33,246 nt of DNA. It comes from a virus. The notes under the pieces were generated by a model. The model did no database searches. It worked only from the letters and a program-made list of their open reading frames with translations, and was not told the DNA's origin. A program made the position numbers and the translations under genes. Where the stretch lies: positions 1-33,246 of IMG/VR virus record IMGVR_UViG_3300022746_000041; one strand, given 5' to 3'. How positions within the stretch are numbered: the first letter of the stretch is position 1; each line of letters starts with the position of its first letter. Below, piece after piece: positions 2,611-32,132 of the stretch.

Positions 2611-4223
2611 GCTTGGGTTCTTGGTTTGGTCGCATTGTTAGGGCAGGTGCTCAGGATTACACGAAGCGGCAGCACATCTACGTAACTCCGCAGGATACAC
2701 GCACTGACGTATCCAATCAAAGCCGCAAGCAGGTTCTAGGGTTGGCTCGCTATTGGTTTTACAATAGCCCCGTCGTCCGTGGTGCAATCGATTGCATGGT
2801 TCGCAATTCGATTGGCCCTGGCATCAAAATGCAATCCCGTACAAGCGACGAGGGATGGAACAAGGCGACCGAGGAATGGCTGGAGAATTGGGGCCGTGCT
2901 TGCGATATCCGTGGCCTTTTGGATTGGAGCACCATTCAGCAAATCGCCACCCGCACCTGCCTACGCGATAACGAAGTCTTTATTTTGCTAACCGATAACG
3001 GTGACGGCTGGCCAATGCTTCAGATGGTCGAGGCGCACCGCTGCGAAACTCCAGACTACTTACAAGGCGAGAAACGGGTGATCGATGGCGTGCGGGTGAA
3101 TGCCCAAGGTCGACCGCTCTCCTACTACATCAACACGGGCGACGCAGATAAGTATTCAGAGATTCAAGCCTCCAATCTAATCGTACTGGCAGAACGCGAC
3201 AGAGCTGACGAGCTGCGCAGCCTTTCACGATTAGTCACATGCTTAAACCTAATCCAAGACCGCGAAGAAATTTTGAGCAACACAATGGTCAGCGTGAAGC
3301 GATCCAGCGCGATCGGATTAGCATTGGAAGGCGAGGGAAGTGCTGGATTCTTTGGCCCTGAATCAACCAACTCAGAAGGAATCACGACAGACCGCGTGTT
3401 CGGATCGGGCGCGATCTGGAACGTTCCAAACGGTCGCAAGATTCGCGAGATCAAAGACGATCGGCCTAGCCCGAACTTGACTGAGTTTATGGATCAGTTT
3501 TTGCGAGCCGTAGCCTCTGGCCTTGGCTTGCCTTACGAGTACCTATGGAAAGCGGATCTCTCTGGCCCATCGCAGAGATTCGTTCTGGCACAAGCCCAGC
3601 GCAGATTTGATGAAATTTCGCAAACCGTAATCAATCAGCTCGTGTCTAGGGTTCGCCTTTGGGCACTAGCCAAAGCAATCAAACGCGGTGATCTGATTCC
3701 TCCGCGTGGAATGGATCGGTGGTGGCAAGCGACCTATCACACACCTCGTCAGACCACGATTGATGCAGGCAGGGACAGCGCAGCCGATCGTGAGGATTTG
3801 AAACTTGGCCTAACCACCTATGCGGATATTTACGCCGCTAGGGGAGAGGATTGGCAGGACGCGATTGATCAGAAGATTGCGGAACAAGCCTACATCCGAT
3901 CAAAGTGCGAAGCCGCTGGGATTCCAGTTAGCGAAGTGCAATTCATTCCAAACCAATCGCAAGCCGAGCCAGCCGTAACTCCTCCCAGCGCAGTTCCGGC
4001 AGATGAAGTGCCAGCACAGGCTCCAGTTCCAGAACTTTCAGCGCCTACTGAGACTATGACTCTGACTGCTCCTGTTGAGGCGGCACCTGAGCCTGTAGCT
4101 AAGACCCAAACTTTTACTATGAAGGACGACGCCGACTTTAACCTATCCTCTAAAGAGCTGGATATGGTGGCGAAAAGCCTTGGCCTGAAAGACAAAAAGC
4201 CCCGCAAAAAGAAAACGAGTTGA
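2607..4223 (+). CDS. portal protein, lambda gpB family
   Basis: A 538-aa protein forming the dodecameric DNA entry ring at one capsid vertex. The family is recognisable from the N-terminal block (RYWFYNSPVVRGAIDCMVRN, then SIGPGIKMQS), the central stretch reading out into LLTDNGDGWPMLQMVEAHR, and GLPYEYLWKADLSGPSQRFV, a hallmark of the phage_portal_2/lambda group. The last ~100 residues are a low-complexity Pro/Ala/Glu tail ending in a lysine-rich patch, a likely disordered region inside the capsid. It overlaps the upstream gene by 4 nt and is followed closely by the protease gene, as in lambda B-C. Confidence 0.93.
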   Translation: MSLGSWFGRIVRAGAQDYTKRQHIYVTPQDTRTDVSNQSRKQVLGLARYWFYNSPVVRGAIDCMVRNSIGPGIKMQSRTSDEGWNKATEEWLENWGRACDIRGLLDWSTIQQIATRTCLRDNEVFILLTDNGDGWPMLQMVEAHRCETPDYLQGEKRVIDGVRVNAQGRPLSYYINTGDADKYSEIQASNLIVLAERDRADELRSLSRLVTCLNLIQDREEILSNTMVSVKRSSAIGLALEGEGSAGFFGPESTNSEGITTDRVFGSGAIWNVPNGRKIREIKDDRPSPNLTEFMDQFLRAVASGLGLPYEYLWKADLSGPSQRFVLAQAQRRFDEISQTVINQLVSRVRLWALAKAIKRGDLIPPRGMDRWWQATYHTPRQTTIDAGRDSAADREDLKLGLTTYADIYAARGEDWQDAIDQKIAEQAYIRSKCEAAGIPVSEVQFIPNQSQAEPAVTPPSAVPADEVPAQAPVPELSAPTETMTLTAPVEAAPEPVAKTQTFTMKDDADFNLSSKELDMVAKSLGLKDKKPRKKKTS

Positions 4224-23361: not shown

Positions 23362-23547
23362 TTATTTTTTATTCGTCTTGGTAAAAATAGCAAGATTGCC
23401 TTTGATCCGCCCTTCCGCGATGGCGCATTCCCGCAGAATTAACTGCGTGATATATGCCGAAAGGGATAAACCACCCTTATTGGCCAAATCAAAAGCTTTT
23501 CTTTTAATGTCTGCTGGCAGATAAATGTTCGTTCTCTGCTTATTCAT
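23362..23547 (-). CDS. ribbon-helix-helix repressor (leftward, candidate prophage repressor)
   Basis: A 61-aa RHH protein (Arc/CopG/MetJ fold). The DNA-reading strand is QRTNIYLP, followed by helix A (ADIKRKAFDLANK) and helix B (SLSAYITQLILREC), plus a basic tail ending TKTNKK. The ATG at 23547 is preferred over an upstream Met because a consensus promoter ends 6 nt before it. The mRNA would then start at or next to the ATG (leaderless). It is paralogous to the rightward RHH protein (17 of 38 aligned residues identical). It is cotranscribed with the secreted-protein gene. Confidence 0.75.
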   Translation of the reverse strand: MNKQRTNIYLPADIKRKAFDLANKGGLSLSAYITQLILRECAIAEGRIKGNLAIFTKTNKK

Positions 23548-23553
23548 AGACGC

Positions 23554-23582
23554 ATAATATGCGCTAGTTGTGCGCAATGCAA
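23554..23582 (-). promoter_or_regulatory. leftward promoter of RHH/secreted-protein operon
   Basis: On the minus strand TTGCAT (23582-23577) and TATTAT (23559-23554) are separated by 17 nt, a very good sigma-70-type match. Six nucleotides then lead to the ATG at 23547, so transcription should begin at the start codon. A copy of TTGTGCGC (23568-23575) lies in the spacer. The -10 sits in the palindrome CGCATAATATGCG (23551-23563). Confidence 0.65.
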
Positions 23583-23610
23583 GATCAAAGAAAAAAATAA
23601 TAGAAATCTG

Positions 23611-23638
23611 TTGACGCATTACATTGTGCGCACATTGT
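23611..23638 (+). promoter_or_regulatory. rightward (lytic) promoter of RHH/xis operon
   Basis: TTGACG (23611-23616), 16-nt spacer, then CATTGT (23633-23638), a weak -10. Six nucleotides separate it from ATG 23645, the same geometry as the leftward promoter. Even the sequence before the start matches (GCGCCTATG here, GCGTCTATG there). The tandem operator repeat covers the -10. Confidence 0.5.
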
Positions 23639-23642
23639 GCGC
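23621..23642 (+). repeat. 11-bp tandem operator repeat (ACATTGTGCGC x2)
   Basis: ACATTGTGCGC is repeated exactly twice in direct orientation at 23621-23631 and 23632-23642, one helical turn apart. It extends over the rightward promoter to 2 bp before the start codon. TGTGCGCACA within it is palindromic. RHH dimers typically bind cooperatively to tandem boxes, so this is the probable operator. A third TTGTGCGC lies in the opposing promoter. Confidence 0.7.
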
Positions 23643-23644
23643 CT

Positions 23645-23800
23645 ATGGCACGAGCGATAGAAAATGAGCAAACTAATCTCTATTTGCCGCTTGATGTAAA
23701 AAAAGCCGGATTCAAACTTGCAGACGATCGCCGACTTTCCTTTTCGCAGTTAGTCACGCAACTCATCGAGGCCCAGCTCGAAGAAAAGGATAAGCAATAG
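23645..23800 (+). CDS. ribbon-helix-helix regulator (rightward, Cro-like partner)
   Basis: A 51-aa ORF. The strand EQTNLYLP, helix A (LDVKKAGFKLADD) and helix B (SFSQLVTQLIEAQL) mirror the leftward RHH protein. The DNA-contact strand is nearly the same (TN-Y-LP), so both should read the same operator, while the tails differ (acidic EEKDKQ here, basic there). The promoter and start codon geometry predicts a leaderless mRNA. The gene is followed after 7 nt by the likely excisionase. It probably plays the role of Cro or Mnt/Arc in the lysis-lysogeny choice. Confidence 0.72.
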   Translation: MARAIENEQTNLYLPLDVKKAGFKLADDRRLSFSQLVTQLIEAQLEEKDKQ

Positions 23801-23807
23801 TACCTCT

Positions 23808-24173
23808 ATGAGCTCGGTGCGTCTCAACGATAGTGCAATGAAACTCCGCCAGGAGAACCGAGCTCTTTCCCTACGCCAATTAGGCGCCGCTTACGGGCTG
23901 GGCTACGTAAGGATTAAGCAAATGCAGGCGTTGCCTGGATTCCCGTTGCTCGCGGGAAAGGTAATCCCGAGTGACTTTGATCGGTGGAGGTTGATGCAGA
24001 CTGGCCTAAGTTCACTGCATCGCGGAGATCGTCTACGCAGTGCCGTTGGTAAAGTTCATGCACTAGAGTCGAAGAATGGTTTACGAGTCTCATGGCTACA
24101 GATTGCGAACACCCTGAAAGCCTCAATCGAGTCACGCGGGTTACCCGAAGGGAATGAAAACAATGACGTTTAA
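23808..24173 (+). CDS. excisionase-like (AlpA/Xis-type) DNA-binding protein overlapping int antisense
   Basis: A 121-aa ORF. The N-terminal half contains a helix-turn-helix (LRQENRALSLRQLGAAYGLG) followed by LPGFPLLAGKVIPSDFDRW, the FP...-to-W wing seen in AlpA/excisionase-type proteins. The C-terminal ~58 residues are antisense to the integrase gene and look less protein-like, so the functional part may end near residue 65. The gene is 7 nt behind the rightward RHH gene, so it would be made when the lytic promoter fires. Role: steering integrase to excision. The identification is by motif and context. Confidence 0.6.
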   Translation: MSSVRLNDSAMKLRQENRALSLRQLGAAYGLGYVRIKQMQALPGFPLLAGKVIPSDFDRWRLMQTGLSSLHRGDRLRSAVGKVHALESKNGLRVSWLQIANTLKASIESRGLPEGNENNDV

Positions 24174-25011
24174 GGCCGCATATATCGAGCAGGCGACGCC
24201 AGCAAAGCGAGGCTCGCGTGCGGGGCACGATACAGGTGACCTCGCGTCCCTCGGCCTTCATCTTGGCGAGCATGGGTTCGATTGCGGCCGGAATGGGAAT
24301 GCTGAAGGATTTGCCCGTGCCACCCTTGGGGCAGGGGAACGTAAGGATGCGATTCTTCAGATCCACGCAGTCGAGCGGGATCTGTGTCTCACGAAGGCGA
24401 CAGCCCGTAGCCAGGGCGATCTCAAAACTTACCTTCATCCATTCGGGCACACCTTCCACAGCGAGAGCCTTCCGGGTGATTTTAACTTCATTATCCGAAA
24501 AAATGGGTTTAACGCGGAAGATCGGCCCCCTCTTAATTCTGTAATCCAGAAGAGCGACAGAATCCATCTTTCCAAGCAGTCGCCCTTGCCTGTGAATCCA
24601 TTTCAGAATCTTCAGATCTTGGCACGCTTGGTTCCTGCCAGCCTTGCCGCCGGACGTGCGTGGGAGGCTTTGGCGCCACTTCAAATAAATTTCACAATCG
24701 GATGGAGAAAACGCTTGCAGAGTTATTTTTTTCTCACTAATAAAACGAGCAAGATGACGCCAGCAATTCCGGTAATACACTTTTGTCAGAGGAGAAACTG
24801 GGTGATTTTCAATCAAATCGTGAACCCAATCGCTGCCGCTATCTTTACGTTTTTCATTAACGCCAAGTCGAGCGGCCTCAGCCGTTGCCTTGGCGCGGTG
24901 AAGGGTATTATCAATTCGGTAGCGGGTGCTTTTCGTGCGCCACTTGCCGGTGGGATCTTTAAAGCGAATATAAAACCACGGATTTCCTTTTTTAATGTAG
25001 GAATAGGCCAT
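23914..25011 (-). CDS. int: tyrosine recombinase / phage integrase
   Basis: A 365-aa integrase. The N-terminal arm-binding part (YIKKGNPWFYIRFKDPTGKW) and a SAM-like core-binding domain (residues 62-150) precede the catalytic domain. Visible catalytic residues are R205 in TGCRLRE, K229 in the beta hairpin, H286 and R289 in FHSLR, H312 in LVNHSS, and the nucleophile Y321 in ELYQRH. All the expected residues are present, so it should be active. About 44 residues follow the tyrosine, and the last 28 overlap the antisense excisionase-like gene. The start lies 93 bp from the tRNA-derived attP. It should insert the phage into a host tRNA gene. Confidence 0.95.
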   Translation of the reverse strand: MAYSYIKKGNPWFYIRFKDPTGKWRTKSTRYRIDNTLHRAKATAEAARLGVNEKRKDSGSDWVHDLIENHPVSPLTKVYYRNCWRHLARFISEKKITLQAFSPSDCEIYLKWRQSLPRTSGGKAGRNQACQDLKILKWIHRQGRLLGKMDSVALLDYRIKRGPIFRVKPIFSDNEVKITRKALAVEGVPEWMKVSFEIALATGCRLRETQIPLDCVDLKNRILTFPCPKGGTGKSFSIPIPAAIEPMLAKMKAEGREVTCIVPRTRASLCWRRLLDICGLKRHCFHSLRVTRVTRLRLSGCSQSVAMRLVNHSSTLVHELYQRHCVDDLRDAVNLGQSASTSTDQSHSGLPFPRATGIQATPAFA

Positions 25012-25012
25012 A

Positions 25013-25046
25013 GTTACAAGGGTAACATTTGCTTAATTTAAAGCAA
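25013..25046. promoter_or_regulatory. two inverted repeats upstream of int
   Basis: GTTAC-AAGG-GTAAC (25013-25026) lies immediately upstream of the int start codon. TTGCTTAATTTAAAGCAA (25029-25046), with 6-bp arms, follows. Both lie between int and attP and could be operators for int or arm-type sites for integrase/excisionase. No convincing promoter was found here for either strand. Confidence 0.4.
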
Positions 25047-25061
25047 TAACACACAGCAACC

Positions 25062-25319
25062 ATGCAAAGCATAATCAATCAAATCAAAGAAGGAAATAGA
25101 TCCGTGGGTTCAAATCCCACCCCGTCCGATGCTTATCCCTACAATGACTTACGCCGAAACAGTAACACGGCGGTAATTACTGGGCCTAAAAAGGCTCACT
25201 ACCAGCAACTTAATTTAAATTCGCGCGGCGGGTACGATTTGACCCCCGAAGCGTTCGTTTATCACCCTAACCCCGCCGTGTGCCGTATGTGGCACGCCCA
25301 GCACGAGGCCAGCAAATGA
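25062..25319 (+). CDS. hypothetical protein gene crossed by attP, first gene of the early operon
   Basis: An 85-codon frame whose stop overlaps the next gene's ATG (ATGA at 25316), which supports coding at least at its 3' end (YDLTPEAFVYHPNPAVCRMW). The 5' part runs through the tRNA-like attP core; SVGSNPTPS is simply its translation. ATG 25062 has no ribosome site. GTG 25104 has AAGGA (25090-25094) 9 nt upstream, and that GTG is the first base of the tRNA T stem. In a prophage everything before attP would be replaced by host tRNA sequence. No family recognised; the N-terminus is uncertain. Confidence 0.4.
   Translation: MQSIINQIKEGNRSVGSNPTPSDAYPYNDLRRNSNTAVITGPKKAHYQQLNLNSRGGYDLTPEAFVYHPNPAVCRMWHAQHEASK
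25104..25128 (+). other. attP: attP core: 3' end of a tRNA gene
   Basis: GTGGG-TTCAAAT-CCCAC forms a perfect tRNA T arm, followed by the acceptor 3' strand CCCGTCC and discriminator G, with no tRNA 5' half upstream. This is the standard footprint of integration into a tRNA gene, where the phage core restores the tRNA 3' end. The host tRNA should begin with GGACGGG. Its identity cannot be told from this part. It lies 93 bp upstream of the int start. Confidence 0.8.
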
Positions 25320-25468
25320 TCTCGTGGGAAGTCATGCGGGATCTTGCTCAGGTATCGGTTTTAATCCTTGGCTGGCTACTGGCGATCGGTTGCGGAATCA
25401 CTGGCCTGACGATTGGCGCGGCGATCTTTTTTTGGGTCGTTGATTTTATCCGCAAGGAGTTGCTGTGA
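25316..25468 (+). CDS. small two-TM membrane protein, unknown
   Basis: A 50-aa protein (start at the ATGA overlap with the upstream gene). MISWEVMRDLAQVSVLILGW opens a hydrophobic region that continues through GLTIGAAIFFWVVDFI, making one long or two short membrane helices, and ends RKELL. No family recognised. It is the second gene of the early operon and overlaps the next one by 4 nt. Small early membrane proteins can act in host takeover or exclusion, but that is speculation. Confidence 0.5.
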   Translation: MISWEVMRDLAQVSVLILGWLLAIGCGITGLTIGAAIFFWVVDFIRKELL

Positions 25469-25728
25469 TTTACGCCAAGGACAACGGTGCCCCCGCACTT
25501 GAAAGCCAAGGCGGCGTGGCCGAGACGTTCAATTCGTCTGCGGCTACTGTGAGAGACTTAGAGGCAGAGGGGATTCTGCCCGTTTCCATATCGCAATCCT
25601 ACGGATCGGCCCAGCTCTCTCAGACGACTGCTTTAATCGATCTGCAAACCAAGTATCGCAAATTGCGTAATGACCTAGACGGCATTCAAGAGGTTGTTGC
25701 AAGCCTGCTGAAGAGGGCGCAATCGTGA
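25465..25728 (+). CDS. hypothetical early protein with C-terminal coiled coil
   Basis: An 87-aa protein starting with GTG 25465, with AAGGAG 7 nt upstream and a 4-nt overlap with the gene before. The N-terminal half has a helix-turn-helix-like run (GVAETFNSSAATVRDLEAEG) of the type found in MerR-like or terminase-like adaptors, followed by a helical segment (LIDLQTKYRKLRNDLDGIQE) predicted to be a coiled coil. This suggests a small DNA-binding dimer, with modest confidence. It overlaps the nuclease gene downstream. Confidence 0.45.
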   Translation: MIYAKDNGAPALESQGGVAETFNSSAATVRDLEAEGILPVSISQSYGSAQLSQTTALIDLQTKYRKLRNDLDGIQEVVASLLKRAQS

Positions 25729-26060
25729 GCGCATTAGCCAGCAAATTTCTAGTGTTGTGGAAGGTAGCTGGCGGCCCGGAGCTGGTGGCCGAGCACACGT
25801 TCCACCCGACCCGCAAATGGCGTTTCGACTTCGCCTGTAAATCCGCCCGCTGTGCGATCGAGCTGGACGGTGGGGCGTTCCTGCCGTTTGGCGGTCGTCA
25901 CGGGCGAGGGATGGGGATGGTGAAAGACTGCGAAAAATACCGAGCAGCCGCCGACCTGGGCTGGCGCATCTGGCGTTTCACAACCAAGTGCCTAACGGCC
26001 GAAGCAGTGGCGATGACTGCCCAATCGTTCCGCATGGCCATCAAGGAGAAAAAAAAATGA
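25725..26060 (+). CDS. PDDEXK/VSR-like phage endonuclease (putative)
   Basis: A 111-aa protein. The pattern HPTRKWRFDFA, then CAIELDGG, GGRHGRGMGMVKDCEKY, and GWRIWRFT is that of a small PD-(D/E)xK/VSR-like nuclease family widespread in phages. D35 and E46 or D48 are candidate metal ligands. Roles could be Holliday junction processing, host DNA breakdown or repair. The GTG start overlaps the upstream stop, and the stop overlaps the next gene (ATGA). Confidence 0.7.
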   Translation: MSALASKFLVLWKVAGGPELVAEHTFHPTRKWRFDFACKSARCAIELDGGAFLPFGGRHGRGMGMVKDCEKYRAAADLGWRIWRFTTKCLTAEAVAMTAQSFRMAIKEKKK

Positions 26061-26753: not shown

Positions 26754-27236
26754 ATGCCAATAGTAGCAAGCAGAGGGGGGTCATACACGCCAGCCCCGGA
26801 AGGGAATCACGACGCAGTGTTCTGCGACGTTGAGGATCTCGGCGTGGTGGAAACGCAGTACGGTAAGAAGCATCAGATCCGCCTGGTGTGGCAGATTGCT
26901 GAGAAGATGGAGGACGGGCGGCCGTTCACCATCGGCCGGCGTTACGGACTAAGCCTGCATGAGAAATCAGCTCTGTTCAAAGATCTGAAATCCTACGCCA
27001 AAAAGGCGCCACCGCAGAATCTGGATCTGGAAACGCTTATCGGTAAGCCGTGCCAGATCCTCGTGACACATGCGGAACGTGATGGTTCAACCTACGCTAA
27101 TGTGCAGGCCGTCCTGCCGGCGGGTGCAACGAAAATCAAAGTCGATAAGGATTTTGTCAGGAAGTGTAATCGTCCTGGCGCTCCTAAACCAGCAGTAGTC
27201 GAGCTGGATGCCGACGGAACACCCGTACCGTTCTAA
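26754..27236 (+). CDS. ssDNA-binding-like protein (SSB, phage type)
   Basis: A 160-aa protein. APEGNHDAVFCDVEDLGVVE, then KHQIRLVWQIAEKMEDGRPF, RRYGLSLHEKSALFKDLKSY and IGKPCQILVTHAERDGSTYA form an OB-fold pattern typical of phage single-strand binding proteins. The acidic/Pro-rich C-terminus ends VVELDADGTPVPF, a short tail like those that bind replication partners. It lies just upstream of a RecB/Cas4-like nuclease, matching other phage recombination modules. A stable hairpin follows the stop. Confidence 0.7.
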   Translation: MPIVASRGGSYTPAPEGNHDAVFCDVEDLGVVETQYGKKHQIRLVWQIAEKMEDGRPFTIGRRYGLSLHEKSALFKDLKSYAKKAPPQNLDLETLIGKPCQILVTHAERDGSTYANVQAVLPAGATKIKVDKDFVRKCNRPGAPKPAVVELDADGTPVPF

Positions 27237-27242
27237 CCACAT

Positions 27243-27273
27243 TGGCCGGGGTGGGCAATTCCCACCTCGGCCA
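27243..27273 (+). terminator. hairpin after the SSB-like gene
   Basis: TGGCCGGGGTGGG (27243-27255) pairs with CCCACCTCGGCCA (27261-27273) over 13 bp with one G-U pair and loop CAATT, 6 nt after the SSB stop. There is no U-tract, so it is more likely a partial terminator or a 3' stabiliser for the SSB message. Confidence 0.5.
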
Positions 27274-27285
27274 GAAAGACCCCCC

Positions 27286-27381
27286 ATGGAAATTCTAACT
27301 TTAGTAATTCAAATCGTGTTTCCAACCACCGCAGTCGTGCTGGCCCTTATGACCATGCGACTGATTAAGGATTGGCAGTAA
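27286..27381 (+). CDS. 31-aa single-TM peptide
   Basis: MEILTLVIQIVFPTTAVVLA followed by LMTMRLIKDWQ: one hydrophobic helix with a charged end. Its TAA stop overlaps the ATG of the nuclease gene (TAATG), which supports translation. It has no clear ribosome site. Function unknown. Confidence 0.4.
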   Translation: MEILTLVIQIVFPTTAVVLALMTMRLIKDWQ

Positions 27382-28181
27382 TGGCTGCGTTAATTGCCAC
27401 GGCGCAGGCCGAAAACTCGCACTACTACACCCGCCTAGGTGAACCAGTGCACGGAACACTGCGAGAAGCGAGAAAAGTGAATGCTTTACCGAGCGTGACT
27501 AACGGCATGAGCATTCTAGCAAAGCCTGGGCTAATTTATTATCTGCAAGAAACCGCCATTCTGTCGGCAATCTCGCTGCCAAAAGAAGAAAATGAAATTG
27601 AGAGTGATTTTGTTAAACGGGTAGTCCTAGACACACGCAAAGAAGTTGAGGCAGCGGCAGAGCGGGGAACATACACGCATAGCCTTTGCGAAATCCTTGC
27701 AGATGGTGGAGAAAGGCCAGCGGATCTTCGCAAAGGATTCGAGCCACATTGGGAAAATCTTAAGAAGTGGTTTTCAAAGGTTCACGAAATCCACTCGTCA
27801 GAGCAGGTATTAGTAAATGAGGAGGTTGGATACGCAGGCCGAGTGGATTTAATTGCTGAGATCTATGACAAAGACCCTTTTTCTAGGATGCCTCGCATTG
27901 AGGTGATCGATTTTAAAACCCGCAAATTTAAAAAGGACAAAAAGGGGAATGCAAAGGCCGATAGTTACAGCACGGATCTTTACCAGTTAGCAGCCTACTG
28001 TTTTGCCCAATTCGACGAACCGACATGGTGCCGGAACGTTTATATCGAGCCGGTGACGGGTGAGATTAGCGAAAAGGAGTGGAGTCCAGAGGAAGTCGAG
28101 GCCGCCTTTGAAGTGTTTAAGGCCATCTGCGTGATCTGGCAGGCCGAGAAAAAATACAACCCAACGGTAGAAGCAAAATGA
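27381..28181 (+). CDS. RecB/Cas4-like PD-(D/E)XK exonuclease
   Basis: A 266-aa nuclease. H100 in GTYTHSL, E148 and D156 in GYAGRVDLIAE, D177 and K179 in VIDFKTR, and Y201-Q202 in LYQLAAY form the active-site set of the RecB/Cas4/lambda-exo-like clan (PDDEXK_1 type). It should resect or cleave DNA during replication or recombination with the SSB-like protein upstream. ATG 27381 (TAATG overlap) is chosen over an upstream TTG. The stop overlaps the next gene (ATGA). No Fe-S cysteine cluster of Cas4 type is seen. Confidence 0.82.
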   Translation: MAALIATAQAENSHYYTRLGEPVHGTLREARKVNALPSVTNGMSILAKPGLIYYLQETAILSAISLPKEENEIESDFVKRVVLDTRKEVEAAAERGTYTHSLCEILADGGERPADLRKGFEPHWENLKKWFSKVHEIHSSEQVLVNEEVGYAGRVDLIAEIYDKDPFSRMPRIEVIDFKTRKFKKDKKGNAKADSYSTDLYQLAAYCFAQFDEPTWCRNVYIEPVTGEISEKEWSPEEVEAAFEVFKAICVIWQAEKKYNPTVEAK

Positions 28182-28330
28182 TTGAGATCCTACCCGAACA
28201 ATCCACGCACGAGCAGTTGCTAAACCGCGTGCGATCGCTGGCCCGTGAGCTTGCGGAGGCGAAGGCTGCGCTGGCGGCTGCGGAAGGTCGTGAGAACGAT
28301 CTGATTGATCGCATAAGGGCAGGGCTATGA
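28178..28330 (+). CDS. short coiled-coil protein
   Basis: A 50-aa ORF overlapping both neighbours by 4 nt. The sequence is one long helix (LLNRVRSLARELAEAKAALA and on), a predicted coiled coil that would form a dimer or bind a partner. Function unknown. Confidence 0.5.
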   Translation: MIEILPEQSTHEQLLNRVRSLARELAEAKAALAAAEGRENDLIDRIRAGL

Positions 28331-28755
28331 GAGCGCTTTGCAACCTTGTGCTGACGTTTCTGGCGTTCTTTGGGTTCCCCGCCACGCAGGCGTCGAACGT
28401 GATGATCGACATGCGGCCGGACGCCAAAAAGATCGACGTAAAGAAAATTAAAGTGCGCATCACTGGCTACTGGCCGGGCGAGGATGAGTGGAGCAGTCGC
28501 TATCAGTCGAGCACTGGCACTAGGTTGCGTGCCGGCCGTCACTGCGCCGTTGATCCAGACATCATTCCACTGTGGTCAAAGATTCGCGTGATGGGCGCGA
28601 AGCGGGAGTGGGTGGCCGTGGATACTGGCACGGCAGTAAAAAGCAAGAAGGCCAGCGGTGGCAAGTTGCCGGTAATCGACGTGTTTGCTTCGAGCGAAAA
28701 GCAGTTTAACGCGATGCGTCTGCCGAAAGTGGCGATGGTGGAGGTGATAAAGTGA
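28327..28755 (+). CDS. exported 3D-domain protein (double-psi beta-barrel, MltA-like)
   Basis: A 142-aa protein with a likely signal peptide (MRALCNLVLTFLAFFGFPAT, cleavage near TQA-S). The mature part has TGYWPGEDEWSSRYQSSTGT, then the three aspartates of the 3D domain in CAVDPDIIP, AVDTGTAVKS and VIDVF. Such barrels occur in lytic transglycosylases and germination factors and act on peptidoglycan. It is unusual for it to sit among replication genes and not in the lysis cassette. The stop overlaps the next gene. It may help DNA entry or remodel the wall early; both are inferred. Confidence 0.72.
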   Translation: MRALCNLVLTFLAFFGFPATQASNVMIDMRPDAKKIDVKKIKVRITGYWPGEDEWSSRYQSSTGTRLRAGRHCAVDPDIIPLWSKIRVMGAKREWVAVDTGTAVKSKKASGGKLPVIDVFASSEKQFNAMRLPKVAMVEVIK

Positions 28756-29033
28756 GCACGAAAGCTGCCACGTTCGCATCTAAACGCAATCGGGCCGCTG
28801 GCCTTGGCGATACACGCCCTACGTTCCGCCGCCTAGGCGTGATCGCTGGAATGTTGCGCCGAGATATGACACTGCCGAGCTGTGCCAGGTTGGGCGTTAA
28901 GCTCGAATGTAGCTACAAGACGATCCAGCGAGACATCGATCTGCTGCGTGACTTCTTTGGTTATCCGCTGGAATACGATCGCAACAAGTACGTCTACAAA
29001 TTGGCGGGGCCGCTGCCAAAGGCGGTGCTGTGA
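28752..29033 (+). CDS. WYL-family-like helix-turn-helix regulator (N-terminal domain only)
   Basis: A 93-aa protein matching the N-terminal winged HTH of WYL/DeoR-like regulators: RRLGVIAGMLRRDMTLPSCA, then LECSYKTIQRDIDLLRDFFG and the wing PLEYDRNKYVYKL. The WYL ligand-binding domain is absent, so it is a stand-alone DNA-binding unit. It likely controls early or late transcription. The GTG start overlaps the 3D-protein stop (GTGA) and its stop overlaps the next small gene. Confidence 0.7.
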   Translation: MSTKAATFASKRNRAAGLGDTRPTFRRLGVIAGMLRRDMTLPSCARLGVKLECSYKTIQRDIDLLRDFFGYPLEYDRNKYVYKLAGPLPKAVL

Positions 29034-29158
29034 GCCTAGCCGATCTCTTGACCATGTTCTCCGCCCGCATTATCTGCACCTACACGCCGGAGGAGTACGC
29101 CAACTGTGTGCGAGAGGCCCGTGCTAATCGCATGCGTTGGGGGATGGGGCAGTGGTGA
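29030..29158 (+). CDS. 42-aa hypothetical protein
   Basis: GTG at 29030 overlaps the upstream stop. The sequence reads MSLADLLTMFSARIICTYTP, then EEYANCVREARANRMRWGMG and QW: two short amphipathic helices. Translation is supported by the overlap. Function unknown. Confidence 0.45.
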   Translation: MSLADLLTMFSARIICTYTPEEYANCVREARANRMRWGMGQW

Positions 29159-29172
29159 GAGAGGAAAATCAA

Positions 29173-29628
29173 ATGAAACATCCATCAGACGCTATGCTTG
29201 CAATCTTAAAAATCCAAAACACTGATGAGGTTAATTTAATAAACGAATCTGAGCTGTCATTAATTCTGCGAGAATGTGAGCGACTGACGTTAATTATTGA
29301 GCAGTTAAAAGACCGAGCAAGAAAACTGCTAAAAGATGGTAGCACAATAAATGGATGGCGAGTCGAGACACGGGACAAGCGAGTAATTAATGACCATCAA
29401 AAATGTTTTAAAAGAATAGCCAGTGTCTTTGGCTCTGAAATCGCAATATCGTCGAGCAAGGTAAATCTAACTACTGCGGCCAAGCTAGTGGAGCAACTTC
29501 GTGCTGTTACGCCAGAAAAGGCTACCACTTTAATCAATAGCGAGCTTGCTGGGCTTTTCGATATTTGCTCAACGGATTACTTGCTAAAAGTCCGTAAATA
29601 TACAGCCGGAAAGTGGTGTGTTCGATGA
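29173..29628 (+). CDS. hypothetical protein, helical
   Basis: A 151-aa protein starting at ATG 29173, which has AGAGGA 7 nt upstream; GTG 29155 (GTGA overlap) is an alternative. A coiled-coil start (LILRECERLTLIIEQLKDRA) is followed by GSTINGWRVETRDKRVIND, similar to the GxxIxGWKLVExRxxRKW segment found in DUF2800-type phage proteins, and then helices. The resemblance is weak. It overlaps the next gene (ATGA). Confidence 0.45.
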   Translation: MKHPSDAMLAILKIQNTDEVNLINESELSLILRECERLTLIIEQLKDRARKLLKDGSTINGWRVETRDKRVINDHQKCFKRIASVFGSEIAISSSKVNLTTAAKLVEQLRAVTPEKATTLINSELAGLFDICSTDYLLKVRKYTAGKWCVR

Positions 29629-29801
29629 GCGTAAAACGCCTCACCTGGCATCTCGCCGTGCTCGAACGTGCGAAGAAGAATTTGCTGAAGAAGCAGTACG
29701 ATGCAGTGCGTACTCGGCTTGATCTGGCCGTTCTTATGGCGAGCGAAATGCTTAAGCAGGCCGAGGGCTATAAGGCCAAGGCGATGGAGGCCAAAAAATG
29801 A
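29625..29801 (+). CDS. small basic helical protein
   Basis: A 58-aa protein (ATG at the ATGA overlap; a longer in-frame start at 29613 is not favoured). It is almost entirely helical and lysine-rich (LERAKKNLLKKQYDAVRTRL, EMLKQAEGYKAKAMEAKK). It could bind nucleic acid non-specifically. No family recognised. Confidence 0.45.
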   Translation: MSVKRLTWHLAVLERAKKNLLKKQYDAVRTRLDLAVLMASEMLKQAEGYKAKAMEAKK

Positions 29802-29977
29802 AACTGCTTTCAATCCTGTTCTATTACTTAGGAGACATGGTCAGCCACACGATCGCCCGGTGGAGCTGGGGCGGGTGGCTGTATCAGCGGTTGATGTTGT
29901 TGTCCGTGGATTGCGACAAGGACTTTGAAATTTGGAAAGAAGTGAAGCCACGCAAAAAGAGGAGAAAACGTAAATGA
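29798..29977 (+). CDS. small conserved-type phage protein with basic tail
   Basis: A 59-aa ORF: MKLLSILFYYLGDMVSHTIA, then RWSWGGWLYQRLMLLSVDCD and KDFEIWKEVKPRKKRRKRK. The GDxxS.....W..Y...mLxSxDxDxxxxIWK pattern is one I know from many small phage proteins of unknown function. It overlaps both neighbours by 4 nt. Confidence 0.55.
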   Translation: MKLLSILFYYLGDMVSHTIARWSWGGWLYQRLMLLSVDCDKDFEIWKEVKPRKKRRKRK

Positions 29978-30165
29978 AGGATCTAGGCAAAATTACTTTT
30001 GGTAAAGCACGCCCTGCACCGAAGCAAGTTCTAGTCGACGTAAGCTATGACGCTCGGACGGCCAAGGCGTTGCACGCATTTGGACTGAAGCAGTTAAAAA
30101 AAGATCAAGAAGCAGTGATTGAGTACGTGATTAAGAAAGCGTTGGAAGGATTGGTCAAAAAATGA
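29974..30165 (+). CDS. small hypothetical protein upstream of primase
   Basis: A 63-aa protein with a beta-like start (KQVLVDVSYDARTAKALHAF) followed by a helix (QEAVIEYVIKKALEGLVKK). VDVSYDARTAKALHAF-to-AVIEYVIKKAL could be a strand-helix-helix (RHH-like) fold, but the pattern is loose. It overlaps the primase gene by 4 nt. Confidence 0.4.
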   Translation: MKDLGKITFGKARPAPKQVLVDVSYDARTAKALHAFGLKQLKKDQEAVIEYVIKKALEGLVKK

Positions 30166-32132
30166 TCGCACCCCTACCACCCGCAATCGAAGCCATCCAT
30201 CGGAACGGGGCCGCTGAAGGTGAGCGCAACACGCAGCTCTTTAAGCTGGCATGCCAGTGGCGCGACCAAGGGCTGACGGAGTTCGACGCAACGACCAACG
30301 CAGAAGAGTGGGCGTTTAAGGTAGGGCTGTCGCAGAATGAGGCCGTCAGTGCTGTTAGATCCGCGTTTAGTAAGCCAGCCAGGGAGGCGTGGAAGCCAAA
30401 GGCCAAGTATACTTATCAGAACGGGGCGATCGTGCGTGAAGATCTGCCGGTGCCGCCTATGCCGATCAGCGTGGAGAGTGGGCCAGTAGATAAGTTTTTG
30501 ACCACATGTTTCGACGTGGGTGATTACATAAATATCTGCCGATCGATTAAGGATAAGGACGGCCGAGAACGCCCGGACGGTGCAGGCGAGACCCGAAGCC
30601 GTGAGGAATGGCTAGAGCTGTTTAAGGGCGACGGATTGAAGGAGTGGCAAGGGGATGCAGTAGGCGTCTATGTGTCGATCAACGCTAACAACGGAAAGAA
30701 TCGTAAAGCGGAGTCGATCGTGAAGTACCGCCACTGCCTGATTGAGTTCGATGAAAGCACAATGGCTGAACAGTGGGCGATCATTAAGCGCAGTGGGTTG
30801 CCTACGTCGTCCATCATTAAGAGCGGATCACGAAGCCTGCACGCTTGGGTGGAGATTCGGGCAGCCAATGCCAAGGAGTTCGCTGAACGTGTGGACTTTA
30901 TTTACAAGCACCTAGAACACTCGAAACCTGATCCAGCAAACAAAGACGCTGGCAGGTTGTCGCGGTTGCCAGGGGCGATGAGGACGGCCACAGGTTTGCA
31001 GCAGGAGTTAGTCGAGTGTGGCGCACCGACTTTGACTTATATGGAATGGCAGGAGCGCACGATCTACGGTGATATTCCAGAGCCGTATAGCTGGGAGCAG
31101 TTAGTCAATTTCAAGGAGGATGCCGACATCACGCAACTGCTAGGCAAGCGGTGGATATGCCGTGGCGGCTCAGCGTTGTGGGTTGGCAGCAGTGGACTTG
31201 GCAAGAGCGTGCTGTGTATGCAGGCCGCAATCACCTGGGCAATCGCTGAGTCGTTCTTCGGTATTAACCCGCACGGCAACGGGCTGAAGTCGCTAATCAT
31301 TCAAGCTGAGAACGACGAGGGAGACGTGGCCGAATCGATTCAAGGCGTGTTTAAGGCGATGAATCTAACCGAAAAGCAGAAAGCGTTAGTTATGGCAAAC
31401 GTGACCATCGTGCGTGATTGCACATCGACCGGGGAGAAGTTCGTGGATCGTGTTCGCCGCTTAGTCGAGAAGCATAAGCCCGACCTAGTCTGGATCGATC
31501 CCTTGCTGGCGTTCATTGGAGGCGATCTATCCAGCCAGGAGACGGCAAGTGCTTTCCTGCGCAATATGCTTAATCCGCTATCCCTGTCGGCTGGGTTTGC
31601 GTGGATGTTAATCCATCACACCCCGAAGCCAGTACGAGAAGGCAATGGGTACCAAGGCGCAGACAAGGCATATAGCGGATTTGGCTCAAGCGAGCTGACT
31701 AATTGGGCAAGAAGCGTATTAATTCTTGCGCCTTGTGGCGACGATGCCGAAGGAAAGCGTATCTATAGGCTTGAGGTAACCAAGCGAGGCAAGCGGTCTA
31801 ATCTTAATTCTAAAGGCATTATAGCGCAAAATGCTGTTCAGCCGCACGTGAACTTGCGTCACAGCGATGTAGGGCTGGCGTGGATTGAGGCTGATGAACC
31901 AGAACGAAAGACGGCTGGCAGGCCGGAGATTGTGGTTAATTTTGAGGATTACAAAAAGGCCATATCAAAAGGAATTAGTGCTGGCGATTTGCAAAGCTAT
32001 ATCCGCAATAAATCAAAGGTTGGACATACAAAAAGCCGCGACTTGACGGCGACTTGGGAGCAAGAGGGTCTGATTAAAAATACGGGCACTGAAAAGGCTA
32101 AAAAATACGTACTAAATGAGGATCAAAAATGA
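30162..32132 (+). CDS. primase-helicase (PriCT/AEP-like N-terminus with RecA-type ATPase)
   Basis: A 656-aa replication protein. Residues 15-75 resemble a PriCT-type helical domain (TQLFKLACQWRDQGLTEFDA). Residues about 120-300 look like an archaeo-eukaryotic primase-type fold with CLIEFDE, SIIKSGSRSLHAWVEI and RLSRLPGA. The RepA/DnaB-like ATPase follows, with Walker A GSSGLGKS (342-349), Walker B DLVWID (441-446) and LIHHTPKP. The C-terminus has a winged-helix-like segment (GDLQSYIRNKSKVGHTKSRD). It would prime and unwind DNA at the origin. The candidate origin lies just downstream. Confidence 0.8.
   Translation: MIAPLPPAIEAIHRNGAAEGERNTQLFKLACQWRDQGLTEFDATTNAEEWAFKVGLSQNEAVSAVRSAFSKPAREAWKPKAKYTYQNGAIVREDLPVPPMPISVESGPVDKFLTTCFDVGDYINICRSIKDKDGRERPDGAGETRSREEWLELFKGDGLKEWQGDAVGVYVSINANNGKNRKAESIVKYRHCLIEFDESTMAEQWAIIKRSGLPTSSIIKSGSRSLHAWVEIRAANAKEFAERVDFIYKHLEHSKPDPANKDAGRLSRLPGAMRTATGLQQELVECGAPTLTYMEWQERTIYGDIPEPYSWEQLVNFKEDADITQLLGKRWICRGGSALWVGSSGLGKSVLCMQAAITWAIAESFFGINPHGNGLKSLIIQAENDEGDVAESIQGVFKAMNLTEKQKALVMANVTIVRDCTSTGEKFVDRVRRLVEKHKPDLVWIDPLLAFIGGDLSSQETASAFLRNMLNPLSLSAGFAWMLIHHTPKPVREGNGYQGADKAYSGFGSSELTNWARSVLILAPCGDDAEGKRIYRLEVTKRGKRSNLNSKGIIAQNAVQPHVNLRHSDVGLAWIEADEPERKTAGRPEIVVNFEDYKKAISKGISAGDLQSYIRNKSKVGHTKSRDLTATWEQEGLIKNTGTEKAKKYVLNEDQK

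Follow-up and report, generated by a model that had tools for sequence, protein, structure and literature searches.

In the integrative and conjugative element ICEHptfs4, a promoter and an operon lie on opposite sides of the att site and come together only when the element has been excised as a circle (PMC6586827). The same circularisation-dependent promoter design is attributed to Tn916, as cited in that article. Both are conjugative elements, and the operons concerned consist of transfer genes. Bacteriophages offer a related arrangement, since in BPs-type mycobacteriophages the attP core lies inside an open reading frame (ORF), in some of them at a tRNA gene (PMC4557955, PMC9934374). There, the interrupted frame encodes the repressor, which loses its C-terminal tag upon integration. 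In archaeal viruses with suicidal integrases of the SSV1 type, integration likewise splits a viral gene, in that case int itself (PMC8371274). Finally, ambigrammatic narnaviruses keep the reverse frame of a gene open by avoiding the codons UUA, CUA and UCA, and translation itself has been proposed as the function of such frames (PMC8316113).

The locus considered here belongs to a virus record of 33,246 bases (IMGVR_UViG_3300022746_000041), analysed over its whole length and called the window below. Twelve bases are common to both of its ends, and in 14 IMG/VR loci a gene in the position of a small terminase lies behind the replication genes, about as far away as joined ends would predict, so that the genome is probably near complete and either circular or circularly permuted. 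In the Phage GenBank collection, the region as a whole, the integrase gene int and the ORF around attP are all without a match. We consider it probable, on the gene anatomy, the identity of the core with attB, a kept antisense frame and the conservation of these features, that the locus is the lytic operon of a temperate phage of freshwater Verrucomicrobia (subdivision 6) and is cut by its own integration site: integration would break the operon, and excision would rejoin it. An earlier note on this DNA had read, rightward, a lytic promoter, a ribbon-helix-helix (RHH) gene, a xis-like gene, antisense int, attP and early/replication genes. This gene order is present in the window, with a further, leftward RHH gene at its head, and kept in IMG/VR relatives, in which RHH1 is found in 66, RHH2 in 61, the xis-like gene in 70, int in 75, the attP ORF in 71 and the gene after it in 70.

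RHH1 (23362–23619, minus strand) encodes an Arc-like protein and probable repressor (phrog_582 Arc-like repressor, E 6e-5), and its true start, read from the sequence, is likely at about 23547. A repeat search found two direct 11-bp copies of ACATTGTGCGC at 23621–23642, in the divergent promoter region, which are putative RHH operators. RHH2 (23645–23800, plus strand; phrog_582 E 0.0097, RHH_5 E 0.04) is the first gene of the putative lytic operon. Across 23362–23800, the median identities of the two RHH proteins among relatives are only 46% and 57%, against 91% for int, as if immunity types had been exchanged. The small helix-turn-helix (HTH) gene that follows (23808–24173, plus strand) overlaps the 3′ end of int and is called xis-like. 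Its product has no match in Pfam or PHROG profiles and is 38–41% identical, over about 44 aa, to ORFs that stand beside int in elements of host metagenome-assembled genomes (MAGs).

The attachment core, which the earlier note had placed at 25104–25128, is real and slightly longer, as flank comparison gives a 28-bp identity between 25102–25129 (plus strand) and the 3′ end of a tRNA-Ser(CGA) gene. Exact copies of the 26-mer at 25104–25129 are present in 11 GTDB contigs. The titles of ten name Verrucomicrobia, Verrucomicrobia subdivision 6 or Akkermansia, the eleventh is titled only 'bacterium', and in all 11 the 26-mer forms the 3′ end of such a gene. The core therefore equals a host tRNA 3′ end, as in temperate phages with a tRNA attB. 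In five relatives the core is instead the 3′ end of tRNA-Met(CAT), and in one that of tRNA-Pro(TGG), with the reading frame kept; both tRNAs are present in the same host order. Because of the tRNA-Ser match in Verrucomicrobia contigs and of these alternative cores from the same order, the host and the att site are well supported by sequence comparison. No other attachment site was found, and the orientation of tRNA-Ser is such that the early genes would come to lie right behind the host tRNA, as the earlier note had expected. The host tRNA 3′ end can also pair with a trailing GGACGGGG into a hairpin, and similar T-arm-like repeats occur nearby, downstream of tRNA-Ser (L084, L077 and others). 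Integration would shift the native tRNA-Ser trailer to the int end.

As had been claimed, attP separates xis and its putative promoter from the replication operon, but it does not occupy an intergenic gap. The core lies in frame inside a small plus-strand ORF of 85 aa (25062–25319), the first gene of the early chain, which is open in 72 of 72 core-bearing loci (the window and 71 IMG/VR loci). To the right of the core, this attP ORF has an omega of 0.33 across all 66 unique in-frame sequences and of 0.28 in an ungapped, equal-length subset of 46, in which the shifted frames give about 1.5 and are full of stops; this pattern clearly points to protein-level selection. The 14 codons on the left have an omega of about 0.9 and thus no protein-level constraint. 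The start codon always stands 45 or 51 nt upstream of the GGT of the core, which places it and the first 15–17 codons on the int side. Its ATG has no clear Shine–Dalgarno sequence, and in 67 of the 72 loci translation could instead start at a GTG within the core. The remaining five, all of the tRNA-Met type, have no start codon within the core or soon after it, so that translation there must begin on the int side. Whichever start is used, this layout implies that the region upstream of the attP ORF stays on the int side after integration. The stop of the attP ORF overlaps the next start (ATGA), and GTGA, GTGA and ATGA overlaps link the later genes. From the sequence, ORFs and PHROGs, these early genes (25316–26060, plus strand) encode a small membrane protein, an 87-aa protein and a phrog_503 protein (E 7e-24). 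They are followed on the same strand by replication genes (26754–32132) for an SSB-like protein, an exonuclease and a primase/helicase, assigned by PHROGs and Pfam.

Between xis and attP lies int (23914–25011, minus strand), with its start codon about 90 nt from the core. Its product is a tyrosine integrase (phrog_1 E 4e-29, PF00589), in which the R, HxxR, H and Y motifs can be read. Antisense to int and codon-aligned with it runs an open frame of 295 codons, termed asORF (24154–25041, plus strand). It is fully open in 63 of 69 relatives, which are not independent of one another, and the other two plus-strand frames average 12 and 18 stops. Among the six exceptions, L018 and L065 have a stop just two codons earlier; in the other four, all close relatives (L025, L049, L062, L074), the open frame is not fully kept. 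An ATG or GTG start at 24154 is found in 67 of 69 and overlaps the xis-like stop at 24173. At the other end, the stop at 25039–25041 is TAA, TGA or TAG in 71 of 71 IMG/VR loci and lies 15–21 nt before the attP ORF.

The reverse frame is open by avoidance of TTA, CTA and TCA, as in an ambigrammatic gene. In int codons 1–280, these codons make up 1.3%, 0.2% and 0.6% of their own families, or 11 of the 2,397 codons of the three families, compared with 39%, 28% and 17% in the primase. Over the same stretch, 54–68% of the Lys, Glu and Gln codons end in A. For the int of the window alone, a calculation from the codon usage of ten other window genes puts the chance of such an open frame at 6.5e-6. 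The codon varies in 36 of the 38 Leu/Ser columns of the int alignment, so stops had ample opportunity to arise. The asORF products are on average only 65% identical, against 91% for int, and since their amino acids are poorly conserved, what is kept is openness itself. The simplest interpretation has ribosomes travelling behind the polymerase over int, which would spare a long transcript from termination. This would be, to our knowledge, the first DNA case in which a long antisense frame over an integrase is kept open. The kept frame is the best argument for one transcript across int and attP. More broadly, the region from xis across int and attP carries the marks of one translated transcript, a reading supported by the open antisense frame, the overlaps of gene ends and a layout that recurs in distant relatives.

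Where such a transcript would start is less clear, as a sigma-70 scan gave 2 promoter-like sites against 3.6 in shuffled sequence, which leaves the lytic promoter of the earlier note a guess only. Two results agree with its proposal: no terminator-like site was detected on the plus strand from the xis-like gene to attP (24173 to 25062), and no promoter-like site was detected by the sigma-70 scan of 25130–25320, downstream of attP. One terminator-like site farther downstream, at 25419–25442, is no more than chance would give. Nor was a terminator detected that could halt read-through from the tRNA into the early genes of a prophage.

Three near-full-length records of 33.7–34.0 kb, L194, L195 and L196, bear on the side from which the early genes are transcribed. 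Both RHH genes and xis are missing from them, as are most of int, attP and the left end of the ORF, and they are probably int-minus, virulent descendants. In them, the conserved right part of the attP ORF is fused in frame (at about 2870–3360) to a 196-bp piece of int, corresponding to 24633–24828 (plus strand), which is the only piece of int, xis or the left side of attP that all three have kept. In 100-column windows, this piece is 96–100% identical among the three, against 55–94% for most upstream windows. It coincides with the part of int, 24650–24850, in which synonymous change among relatives falls to 0.63–0.84 of that expected, which hints at an overlapping signal, perhaps an early promoter or leader. 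The piece is a candidate early promoter inside int, possibly the second such promoter to the left of attP. A specific sigma-70 candidate inside int (TTGCAG-17-TAATAA) fits the consensus poorly and was set aside; a function of the segment is supported solely by its conservation and retention. To judge from their gene content, these derivatives show that the right part of the attP ORF and the early genes matter without lysogeny.

The same derivatives are central to the foremost alternative, in which the position of attP is incidental and the early genes are served by a promoter of their own to the right of it, under repressor control only, as in ordinary temperate phages. In many phages attP adjoins the early genes, and L194–196 keep theirs without RHH, xis or the left side of attP, which neither proves nor excludes such a promoter. 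However, the kept int piece comes, nearly identical, from the left of attP, and 25130–25320 holds no promoter-like site. An incidental attP also gives no reason for the kept antisense frame over int, and we regard this alternative as unlikely.

A little less likely still is that asORF is a real protein gene, and that its protein rather than transcript escort keeps the frame open. The kept start and stop codons would fit a protein, as would the reduced synonymous change at 24650–24850. Against this stands the low identity of the asORF products relative to int, together with synonymous change in int that is near that of other genes, from which it follows that the amino acids of asORF are little constrained.

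The arrangement with a kept antisense frame is not confined to the close group. In G055:C16, a contig from a genome of the host order, int is 54% identical and the arrangement is repeated; an ORF runs across the core there, and its GTG immediately follows the antisense stop. More distant int relatives (27–39% identity) from the same host order include integrated elements: in G050, a 36-kb prophage sits at what is, by an anticodon read from the sequence, a tRNA-Phe gene, and in G041 a 3.6-kb element sits at tRNA-Gly. The tRNA arm lies 94–119 nt from the int start in these integrated relatives. An antisense frame is open along int in six distant homologs (G055, G041a, G022, G044, G050 and G303), where the xis-like HTH gene overlaps its start by 14–23 nt in three and lies just upstream in two. 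The chance of openness, given each homolog's own codon usage, is below 0.001 for G022, about 0.15 for G044 and about 0.08 for G050, so that for the last two, which are G+C-rich, an open frame could have arisen by chance. The frame is not open in three other distant homologs and only partly open in one. Replication-initiator-like genes (PF23343, RepSA; scores just under the curated cut-offs) stand first after attL in G041 and as the first complete ORF of the G044 contig. Elsewhere in this int family, L261 (G044:C31) combines a Rep-like gene with a C-5 cytosine methylase and a restriction-endonuclease-like gene. In L092 (G057:C22), two tRNA-end-like sequences in direct repeat flank a stretch of about 2.8 kb with int and a xis-like gene, probably a minimal integrative element without an open antisense frame.

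For the close group itself, searches of viral contigs for attL or attR (tRNA-Ser plus core; core plus host trailer) gave none, and no integrated copy was seen in 62 host-order genomes, mostly incomplete MAGs. An int search of genome contigs returned nothing, while the host-order genomes searched yielded one attP-type contig (G055:C16) and the distant integrated relatives, and a sample of 388 genomes of the phylum one further distant relative. The lack of attL and attR, with attP intact in 72 of 72 core loci, would suit a phage that uses int and attP for occasional integration only and forms no stable lysogeny, as has been described for T7-like cyanophages (PMC8776855). Nevertheless, viral contig collections are biased against host-flanked prophages, the locus has a xis-like gene and an RHH repressor-like pair, and the same int family includes integrated relatives, which makes this possibility improbable.

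It is very improbable that the attP ORF, although it does hold attP, is a repressor or antirepressor altered by integration, given that Pfam and PHROGs profile searches found no DNA-binding domain, that its predicted structure is poor and mostly unstructured (pLDDT 51), that integration takes off the start rather than the tail, and that the RHH genes are the regulator candidates. The likeness to mycobacteriophage integration-dependent immunity, drawn in the earlier note, therefore stands insofar as attP lies inside a gene and fails insofar as this gene is a repressor. Integration-dependent immunity of that type was rejected on account of the split ORF, which does not resemble a repressor; attP is outside both RHH genes, and the original start of the ORF would not be retained. 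In BPs the interrupted frame loses its end, while in the window it heads an early operon and would lose its beginning.

The probable reading, a lytic operon cut by its own integration site, can be followed through the life cycle. In circular DNA, transcription would begin at an RHH-controlled promoter, and possibly also at a second promoter inside int. The transcript would run through RHH2 and xis, then antisense over int, with ribosomes on the open frame following the polymerase, and would read through attP inside the first early gene into the replication genes. The chain of RHH2, xis, asORF, attP ORF and early genes spans attP, and for this reason integration should break the operon and excision should restore it. 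Upon integration into tRNA-Ser, the RHH genes, xis and int would be left at one end of the prophage. The early genes, deprived of promoter, start codon and first codons, would lie at the other end behind the tRNA. During induction, xis would be expressed first, excision would rebuild the operon, and only then would the replication genes be made. A fuller version is offered more tentatively, as a proposal that may well need revision: the integrase would be ambigrammatic in order to let ribosomes escort the lytic transcript, and, because integration breaks a translated operon, excision would act as a licence for replication, in Verrucomicrobia phages and in other mobile elements of this phylum.

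Circularisation-dependent switches of conjugative elements are a closer match to this proposed design than mycobacteriophage immunity, since the gene that is split cannot be recognised as a repressor. As in ICEHptfs4 and, so far as it is cited, Tn916, a promoter side and an operon side flank the att site in the same orientation, which here is given by gene order and strands, the promoter being putative. The present case differs in that it concerns a phage, that attP lies inside the first ORF, and that an open antisense frame over int joins both sides. Unlike in SSV1, int stays whole. The codon signature is the same as in ambigrammatic narnaviruses, but there it marks the polymerase of an RNA virus and here the integrase of a DNA phage, within an operon.

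The layout may thus be viewed as a variation on a known circularisation-dependent design, in which the new elements are the position of attP in the first ORF and the kept antisense frame. If the proposed switch is true, this phage would make its replication conditional on a rearrangement of its DNA, a kind of checkpoint for which the cases described so far are conjugative elements. Translation as a means of transcript protection would also become testable. That distant elements at other tRNA genes share the layout hints that it is the rule throughout this integrase family.
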